The notes beneath the pieces were generated by a model. It was not told the origin of the DNA, searched no databases, and worked only from the letters and a program-made list of their open reading frames with translations. From Haloprofundus halobius (GTDB lineage Archaea; Halobacteriota; Halobacteria; Halobacteriales; Haloferacaceae): DNA of 64,000 nucleotides. Location of the stretch: positions 620,001 to 684,000 of the forward strand of contig NZ_CP083666.1 of assembly GCF_020097835.1 (NCBI RefSeq), in the 5' to 3' direction. Made by a program: the position numbers and the translations under genes. Positions 32,664 through 63,622 of the stretch are shown piece by piece (positions within the stretch are counted from its first letter, which is position 1; the number at the start of each line of letters is the position of its first letter).

Positions 32664-32866
32664 GTTTCGAGAGATAAGTTGGCGACGACGAGGCAGTAGC
32701 GTTTCCGCTTTTTCGGTGTTCAGTAGTTGTGTCGTGGTATCGCTAGCGATGAGGACGCGGCGATGGCGGGACAGCGAAGTCGCTCAGCGGTCGTGTTGGA
32801 TGAGAAGTTTTGCGAGGGAAGAGCGCTCCGAGAGCGGTCTTCCCGCACTACGCCCGGTGAGGACGG

Positions 32867-32930
32867 TAGTGCGAGGGGAGGGATTTGAACTACGTCCGGA
32901 CGCCGAGGCGACCGGTCTCATTCAAATCCC
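32867..32930 (-). repeat. Second copy of the tRNA-Leu tail with an inverted partial copy
   Basis: Positions 32867-32890 repeat 32974-32997 exactly (24 bp). In tRNA terms this is from G53 of the T-loop to three bases past the discriminator. An inverted partial copy follows: TTCAAATCCC at 32921-32930 is the reverse complement of GGGATTTGAA at 32880-32889. The block lies directly 3' of tRNA-Leu, so it looks like a tRNA-tail attachment-site duplicate. Confidence 0.8.
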
Positions 32931-32947
32931 CCCGTTGCGCACGTTCA

Positions 32948-32971
32948 CGCCGCCGCGTGAGTGCGGCGGCG
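32948..32971. repeat. Strong GC hairpin between the tRNA-Leu tail copies
   Basis: CGCCGCCGC (32948-32956) and GCGGCGGCG (32963-32971) form a perfect 9-bp stem with a 6-nt loop, ending 5 bp beyond the tRNA-Leu 3' end. It may terminate or process the tRNA transcript or belong to the duplicated element. Confidence 0.6.
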
Positions 32972-32976
32972 ATTAG

Positions 32977-33060
32977 TGCGAGGGGAGGGATTTGAACCCA
33001 CGGACCTCTACAGGAGCGGATCTTGAGTCCGCCGCCGTTTCCGGGCTTGGCTACCCTCGC
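32977..33060 (-). tRNA. tRNA-Leu (anticodon CAA)
   Basis: 84 nt on the minus strand including discriminator A. Acceptor GCGAGGG pairs with CCCTCGC; anticodon stem GCGGA/TCCGC encloses the loop CTCAAGA, giving CAA. A long variable arm (TCCTGTAGAGGTCC region) marks a type II tRNA. The T-loop is TTCAAAT. One irregularity: the T-stem GTGGG/CCCTC has a U-U mismatch at the second pair (50-64). The 3' strand of that stem lies inside the 24-nt tail that is duplicated downstream, which could mean the tail was exchanged. Confidence 0.9.
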
Positions 33061-33193: not shown

Positions 33194-34219
33194 GTGACGA
33201 CGATTTCGGCGGATGCGCGAGAGCGAATCGAGGCGGCGCTCCGCGAACTCGAAACGGAACACGAGATATCGGTCGTGCTCGCGGTCGCCCGCGGGAGTCA
33301 CGCGTGGGGCCTCGACTCGCCCGAGAGCGACTACGACGTCGGTGTCGTCTACGCACCGAACGACCTCCGGACAGGCTTTCACCTCTCTGCACCGCGCGAC
33401 ACCGTCGAACGGAAATTCGGCTCCGATATCGAGGTTTCGGGGTGGAACGTCACCAAGTTTGCGAGGCTCCTCTCGCAGTCGAACGACGGAGCCATCGACA
33501 CGCTCCGGAGTCCGATTCGGTATCGCGAGCGCTTCGACGCCGACGCGCTCCGCGAGTACGTCGAGGCGACCTACAATCCCGTGGAACTCTACTACTGCTA
33601 CCGGGGCATCGCGAAGTCGAACTACCGAAAGTACCTCTCGTGGCACCTCACCGACAGCGAGAAGCAGTTGTACCCGATCGTGGAACGGACCGCCGACGAG
33701 TACGTCGTCCGGAGTCGCGAAAGCGACGGGCAGTTTTCGATTCCACGTCACCTCGTCGACAGCGGAAAGCCGGTGCGCATCCCCGCCGAACACGTCGAAC
33801 CGGAATCGACGAGCGAAGCAGCGCAGCCACCGCACGAGTTCGTCGAGCGAGCCGTCCAGTCGACGAAGACAAGACGGACGGTGAAGCGAAATCTCGCGGT
33901 GCTCGTCGCGGTGATGGACGCCCGGTTTCTCCTCGCGACGGGCGAGGCGGGCGCGCACGAACTGCCGCACGTCGACTTCCCGACGTTCCTCGCCGAGCAA
34001 GCGCCGAGCGTCTTCGACGACGACGTGCTCGCGCTGGCCGAGGAGCTGGTCGAGCGAAAGCGTCGCTGGGACAACGGAGAAATCGGCGACCGAATCGGCT
34101 ACGAGACGGCGACGCTCCCCGAAGCAATCGACTACGAGACGCACACTCGTCCCGGTCCGGACGAGGCGACGTTAGACGAGTTTATCGACGAGATGCTCGA
34201 CGCTGCGGCGGAGTCGTAG
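33194..34219 (+). CDS. Nucleotidyltransferase-domain protein (YcgL/COG3541-like)
   Basis: GTG start, 341 residues. [22 protein letters not shown] is the minimal nucleotidyltransferase active site (G-S then D-x-D). The following [23 protein letters not shown] and [19 protein letters not shown] fit the predicted-nucleotidyltransferase COG3541 group, members of which occur in phages and bacteria and have unknown substrates. The C-terminal half is helical and acidic. The gene starts 134 bp past tRNA-Leu and is divergent from it, the kind of position where tRNA-linked acquisition is common, though base composition is like the neighbours. Confidence 0.82.
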
Positions 34220-47046: not shown

Positions 47047-47110
47047 AAGTGCTCGGTAGGGGATTTGAACCACCGGAACTTCGCTACGCTCGTTCCGTAA
47101 TTCAAATCCC
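47047..47110 (-). repeat. Second copy of the tRNA-Glu tail with an inverted partial copy
   Basis: Positions 47047-47070 repeat 47142-47165 exactly (24 bp): G53 of the T-loop through three bases beyond the discriminator of tRNA-Glu. GGGATTTGAA (47060-47069) is mirrored by TTCAAATCCC at 47101-47110. Between them CGGAAC (47074-47079) pairs with GTTCCG (47092-47097) around a TTCGCTACGCTC loop. Same layout as beside tRNA-Leu. Confidence 0.8.
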
Positions 47111-47144
47111 TACGCTCGCATTTCACTCATCGAATTCGTGAAAG

Positions 47145-47219
<75 letters not shown>

Positions 47220-63388: not shown

Positions 63389-63465
63389 GCGGTGGGGCTG
63401 GAATTCGAACTCGCCGAGACGGTCGCTCCCGCCGGCCGCACTGCGACTCGTCTGCTCGAATCCAG
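63389..63465 (-). repeat. Degenerate second copy of the tRNA-Ser tail with inverted partial copy
   Basis: 63389-63410 matches 63537-63558 at 20 of 22 positions: from G53 of the T-loop to the acceptor end of tRNA-Ser. TCGAATCCAG at 63456-63465 is a partial inverted copy. The spacing and order are as at tRNA-Leu and tRNA-Glu but the copy has diverged, so it is probably older. Confidence 0.65.
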
Positions 63466-63535
63466 TCGTCTCCGAATCAGATGCTCACGTCGGAGGCGAG
63501 CGGAGACACCGCTCGCCGTAATGTTCGCGCGAAAA

Positions 63536-63622
63536 TGCGGTGGGACTGGGATTCGAACCCAGGAGGCCGAAGGCCACCTGCTTTCAAGGCAGGCGCAATA
63601 GTCCACTCTGCCATCCCACCGC
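63536..63622 (-). tRNA. tRNA-Ser (anticodon UGA)
   Basis: 87 nt on the minus strand with discriminator A. Acceptor GCGGTGG pairs with CCACCGC, anticodon stem CCTGC/GCAGG encloses CTTGAAA giving TGA, the long variable arm has GGCC-TTC-GGCC, and T-stem CTGGG/CCCAG is perfect. A diverged copy of its tail lies 126 bp downstream at 63389-63410. Confidence 0.93.

Follow-up and report, generated by a model that had tools for sequence, protein, structure and literature searches.

A tail-bounded miniature unit behind a Haloprofundus halobius tRNA-Leu gene belongs to a very large family of gene-less insertions at haloarchaeal tRNA genes

Results

The short unit behind the tRNA-Leu(CAA) gene in the window (the whole 64,000-nucleotide stretch of H. 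halobius DNA that was analysed) is a member of a very large family of tiny gene-less insertions, which are found behind almost every kind of tRNA in haloarchaea. Read in the sense of the tRNA, the unit has the order T-h1-T'-h2-T (tail, hairpin, inverted tail, hairpin, tail), and its two outer tails, T1 and T2, form an exact direct repeat of 24 bp with a spacing of 107 bp, leaving 83 inner bases between them (Table 1). Chance is not expected to give an exact 24-bp repeat inside 0.8 kb. A sequence-only reading of the window had described this repeat as starting at G53 and ending 3 nt beyond the discriminator; base-level comparison confirmed the identity of the two copies, and the span fits the ARAGORN and Rfam placement of the gene. 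The same reading had proposed a miniature element bounded by two tail copies and too short for an integrase, and with 83 inner bp this was right as anatomy. The inverted copy that it had noted is present but longer than described: positions 32921-32933 pair with both direct copies (13 nt, 92%), and in folds the inverted copy reaches position 32942, with the far-end GTGCG included. The 9-bp GC hairpin is also real, but it separates the tRNA-proximal tail from the inverted copy and not, as had been stated, the inverted copy from the distal tail. To this first picture two things are added here, namely the haloarchaea-wide family membership and the inverted tail as a constant part of the design.

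Table 1. Features of the tRNA-Leu(CAA) locus and of the two other units in the window
Feature	Position in window	Strand	Basis or composition
tRNA-Leu (anticodon CAA), host gene	32976-33060	-	ARAGORN; Rfam RF00005, 50.2 bits, Rfam span 32977-33060
T1, proximal tail copy (G53 to 3 nt past discriminator), still within the tRNA gene	32974-32997	-	exact 24-bp repeat
h1, GC-rich hairpin right after the tail, 9-bp stem	32948-32971	-	inverted-repeat search and folds
T', inverted tail copy GTGCGCAACGGGGGGATTTGAA	32921-32942	-	inverted repeats; pairs with T2 in folds
h2, tip hairpin TGAGACCGGTCGCCTCGGCGTCCGGACGTA	32891-32920	-	sequence comparison of units
T2, distal tail copy	32867-32890	-	exact 24-bp repeat
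Original tRNA-Leu trailer, conserved GAGGGAAGAGCGCTCC..GGTCTTCCC hairpin	32810-32858	-	alignment with relatives
tRNA-Glu (TTC), host of second unit	47144-47219	-	ARAGORN
Second unit	47049-47165	-	T1 47144-47165, h1 47113-47143, T' 47101-47112, h2 47071-47100, T2 47049-47070
tRNA-Ser (TGA), host of third unit	63537-63620	-	ARAGORN
Third unit, partly decayed	63389-63558	-	T1 63537-63558, T' 63455-63466, h2 63411-63454, T2 63389-63410

When folded, T'-h2-T2 forms one long imperfect hairpin. The fold of the 107-nt unit was strong both as single-stranded DNA (z = -5.6) and as RNA (z = -7.1), and none of 200 shuffles folded equally well. In an Rfam search only the tRNA passed the gathering score, the unit itself having no match to a known RNA family. 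On the other side of the tRNA-Leu gene lies a gene for an RlaP-type RNA-repair nucleotidyltransferase (33197-34216 in the window), which was also aligned in congeners.

The locus was compared in five genomes of the genus: the host's own (G000), G001, G002, G003, and G004. The 107-bp unit was present in G000 and G001, while in G002, G003, and G004 both flanks matched around just one tail, their matches overlapping by 23-24 bases; this is an exact empty site, which lacks the 83 inner bases. The search for the same tRNA-Leu locus without the unit, which had been suggested from the sequence, thus gave three congeners of this kind, and the contrary pattern named alongside it, with all relatives carrying the unit and diverging slowly and uniformly, was not what these three unit-free genomes displayed. 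Plain tandem duplication of the locus was also ruled out, as the 83 inner bases are missing from the relatives. Between G000 and G001 the inner 83 bp differed at 3 positions (96.4% identity, compared to 78.6% in the adjoining intergenic DNA), a level of conservation reached by about 10% of all 83-bp segments. A tree built from 20 kb around the locus had the topology (G001, G004, (G002, (G000, G003))); the two carriers are not sisters on it, and at least two events are therefore needed. Precise deletion between direct repeats has been described in Haloquadratum (PMC3119063), and since deletion between direct tails can also yield exact empty sites, gains and losses are inseparable at the tRNA-Leu locus alone. 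The hairpin in the tRNA-Leu trailer is strongly conserved and common to many haloarchaeal genera; it occurs in the unit-free relatives and follows the last tail in other genera, which means that the unit separates the tRNA from the trailer that it originally had, now shifted away by 107 bp. Apart from G000 and G001, none of 392 genomes of the order contained a copy of the 83 bp, and plasmid and phage matches to the locus covered the tRNA body only.

Two further units were found in the window, one behind tRNA-Glu, with T1 and T2 identical across 22 nt and an h2 of the form TTACGGAAC..GTTCCGGTG, and a partly decayed one behind tRNA-Ser, in which T1 and T2 are identical at 18 of the first 20 nt. 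We then took a census of the tRNA regions of the two carrier genomes, each with 46 tRNA genes, counting downstream tail copies of at least 16/20 and using the tails of other tRNAs as the control. A downstream tail copy followed 16 of the 46 genes in G000 (9 perfect; mismatched-tail control 0.7%) and 18 of the 46 in G001 (15 perfect; control 0.08%). The two genomes did not carry the same set: His, Pro-TGG, and Thr-TGT had units in G001 with no clear copy in G000, and one Tyr gene had an exact tail copy in G000 only. Several h2 classes exist and are common to different tRNA genes within one genome; the class of the tRNA-Leu unit recurs at tRNA-Lys(TTT) of the same genome with the related tip AGACCGG..CCGGGCGTA.

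A tail search through 158 genomes of the host's taxonomic family revealed two to five tail copies, spaced by 81-150 bp, in many of them. Tandem tRNA genes were ruled out, as only one tRNA was called per array. Alignment of the multi-tail loci gave a common T-h1-T'-h2-T plan and a shared h2 class, CAGGGAG - hairpin - CGACCGTG, which matched 138 of the 158 genomes, up to 19 times per genome, compared to mostly zero for the reversed-pattern control. Scanning the named genomes, we found at least 120 h2 sites with the tail signature; among the matches listed, at least 107 had an upstream tail copy, almost always 82-145 bp away, and at least 84 of these copies were inside recognised tRNA genes, representing 27 anticodons. 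Inversion of h2 between T' and T was not seen, T1 lying upstream on the same strand at 107/107 of the listed sites in a search that covered that side only, although still no site was better matched by a tRNA on the other strand. When T' and T were both required around h2, matches came from 32 of the 53 genomes sampled from the haloarchaeal order and from none of 242 genomes elsewhere in the phylum. Among 2.9 million viral contigs there was no credible copy and no canonical h2. At G394:C2:1035239-1035603, four tandem units of 86-87 bp, nearly identical to one another, are framed by five tRNA-Leu tails.

In decisive comparisons, made at positions that vary between tRNA tails, T' agreed with its own tail 75% of the time, compared to 50 +/- 1.4% after shuffling; for example, T' reads GGGAATTGAAT beside the tRNA-Gly tail GTTCAATTCCC. 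The match was best over the 9-10 bases adjoining h2 and weaker outward. Pairing within h2 is kept through compensatory two-sided changes, with 97.9% Watson-Crick pairs in the stems (shuffled maximum 87.4%) and 56 two-sided changes (at most 29 in shuffles), while the first seven and last eight bases of h2, including the apparent mismatches and the bulge, were set by the search pattern and do not represent independent conservation. Mismatches between T' and T comprised 133 sense G-U and 114 antisense wobble pairs, i.e., no sense excess, in what is a weak test of raw counts uncorrected for base composition. Triloop tips were found in 55/115 cases under DNA parameters, and C-GNA-G in 38/246 in a cruder count; as a sign of folding as single-stranded DNA these DNA-type triloops are suggestive only, and we did not rely on them.

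Units were not confined to tRNA genes. In Natronorubrum texcoconense (L198:960-1270), a protein gene with a weak OB-fold match, adjoining a thiolase-like ORF, has three consecutive units at its 3' end, and the repeated tail GTTCGAACCGGTCTGATCCCTG includes the last codons and the stop of this gene. At G293:C1:1471935-1472458 (L330), eleven perfect 50-bp copies in tandem contain the h2 motif GGTTCGATCCGTTCCGGAGGGCGGCTCGAATCAGGGAGTGAAACGACCGTG, and no tRNA was called in the vicinity. Together, these two loci speak for a DNA target resembling GTTCRAA. Among Haloferax species, the unit at one tRNA decays stepwise without being replaced. In Halorubrum and others (L144, L146, L149, L150, and L067), a tRNA-Leu pseudogene was seen about 250 bp downstream, with AGTCGC..GACCGTCT hairpins in the variable arm and then another tail. 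In Haloterrigena salina contig_37 (L236), 3.1 kb with an ORC/CDC6-like ATPase gene separate a tRNA-Val(CAC) tail from a unit, an arrangement that suggests use of the same tail by a larger element.

Discussion

Architecture, family, exact empty site, patchiness, arrays, decay, tracking of the local tail, compensation in h2, and non-tRNA targets were all read directly from the genomes. To explain them, we favour, at a little under an even chance, that the unit is a miniature, ORF-less mobile DNA that may move by site-specific recombination at a GTTCRAA target, with the folded T'-h2-T as its site and an enzyme acting in trans; here the recombination itself, the circle, the recognition of a folded strand, and the enzyme are what we infer. 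The form in which units enter and leave would be a small circle of DNA with the order h1-T'-h2-T (about 107 nt in this case); recombination would take place at G53/T54 of the T-loop-like target, so that the tRNA would be restored. The long imperfect T'-h2-T hairpin would be recognised in its folded form, as the integron integrase recognises attC, by a recombinase provided in trans. Arrays could then result from repeated insertion or from unequal crossing-over between tails, and recombination between direct tails could remove units. This reading is supported by the exact empty site in three congeners, the patchy presence on the tree, and the census counts, by the insert being better conserved than the adjoining intergenic DNA, the tracking by T', and the co-variation in h2, and by the use of a protein-gene 3' end and a non-tRNA array as sites. 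It also agrees with archaeal integrases often using tRNA 3' ends, where cleavage has been proposed at the loop borders (PMC8371274).

Some observations fit recombination less well. At a given tRNA, units frequently give the impression of having been inherited and of decaying, as in the Halorubrum and Haloferax series; deletion between direct tails would also give empty sites; and the viral contigs held no credible copy. The weak point is the tail-tracking, as simple movement between different tRNA genes leaves the match of T' to the local tail unexplained. In a copying accident, replication at a tRNA gene would switch template by way of hairpins and so generate T' and T2 from T, with the conserved palindromes as turning points. 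Such an accident would account directly for the match of T' to the local tail and for the hairpins at both turns. However, it explains neither the fixed start at G53 nor the recurrence of one h2 class, CAGGGAG..CGACCGTG, at 27 anticodons in many genera, and we regard it as unlikely. Compensatory changes in both h2 and T'/T, the strong RNA fold, and the conservation of the insert relative to its flanks could alternatively reflect selection at the RNA level on a structured pre-tRNA trailer, in which T' would pair with T2 or T1 and guide folding or 3' processing of the tRNA. This is quite unlikely, given that units also occur at a protein gene 3' end and in a non-tRNA array, that they decay in Haloferax without replacement, that most tRNA genes of the same genome have none, that their presence is patchy between congeners, and that the raw counts, although a weak test, gave no clear sense G-U excess.

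Ordinary integrative elements that target tRNAs (e.g., of the SNJ2 type) use tRNA 3' ends (PMC8371274), and the 3.1-kb stretch in Haloterrigena salina would fit such an origin, but that the units are remnants or attP scraps of these elements after internal deletion seems very unlikely to us: more than 100 sites share one 82-145-bp design, where independent scraps would vary freely, and the viral contigs contained no canonical h2. Casposases also insert at tRNA-Leu 3' ends and duplicate their target (PMC6977970), and a Cas1/casposase-like enzyme could in principle have inserted the units and duplicated the target site. This is highly improbable given how long the repeat is and where it lies: the casposase duplication is 14-15 bp and covers no more of the tRNA gene than its final 4 bp (PMC6977970), compared to about 20-24 bp from G53 here. 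A duplicated target also does not explain T'.

If the units do move by recombination, the tail-tracking means that each tRNA must keep a lineage of its own, with T' held in step by selection for pairing. It is conceivable, though on balance doubtful, that they represent a new class of tRNA-bound mobile DNA, i.e., minimal circles of about 80-150 nt that would enter gene tails by folded-strand recombination with one tail-matched lineage per tRNA. Such a circle might be dumbbell-like, with T/T' as the stem and h1 and h2 as the loops, in an integron-like system without cargo genes. The haloarchaeal tail-unit family is apparently undescribed, as we found no description in searches of the open-access literature. 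If the reading is right, an ordinary haloarchaeon would have members of a single insertion family, unnamed in the family libraries used, behind about one third of its tRNA genes, and few site-specific mobile units would be smaller. The units would also provide a ready system for studying how a palindromic site stays matched to a target that changes, and could account for the incomplete tRNA tails of haloarchaeal genomes that are currently interpreted as prophage scars. For larger elements, they may provide additional landing sites beside tRNA genes.

Compared with known systems, the family is filed under none of attC, integrative elements, casposons, or Rfam families. Like the attL/attR of SNJ2-, SSV-, and pT26-2-type archaeal elements, the units have direct repeats that are the tRNA 3' end, restore an intact tRNA, and have a boundary at the T-loop border; they differ in having about 83 inner bp, in which no integrase gene would fit, a constant inverted tail, and many copies per genome. 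Casposons share the direct repeats and the use of tRNA-Leu 3' ends, but are kilobases long, with Cas1 and PolB, neither of which fits in 83 inner bp, and with terminal inverted repeats of their own sequence; their 14-15-bp duplication is at the extreme tRNA 3' end, compared to 20-24 bp from G53 in the units. REP/BIME and MITE/PATE-type elements are likewise short, non-coding, hairpin-forming, and dispersed. Their insertion is dispersed and intergenic, however, whereas the units are bound to gene tails with palindrome arms that track the target, and in place of the own-sequence terminal inverted repeats and short target duplication of MITEs, the inverted arm copies the host tail. The units resemble integron attC sites and cassettes (IntI) in several ways: each unit carries a single site, a long imperfect palindrome that can fold on one strand, with a tip that varies and conserved bases left unpaired; the size range is similar; and tandem arrays extend from a fixed point of entry. 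Unlike cassettes, they have no ORF cargo, and instead of the 7-bp attC core, G^TTRRRY, the repeat is a gene tail of 20-24 bp whose junction reads G-TTCRAA, with C as the fourth base in aligned sites, and whose palindrome arm copies the tail of the host gene and changes with the tRNA.
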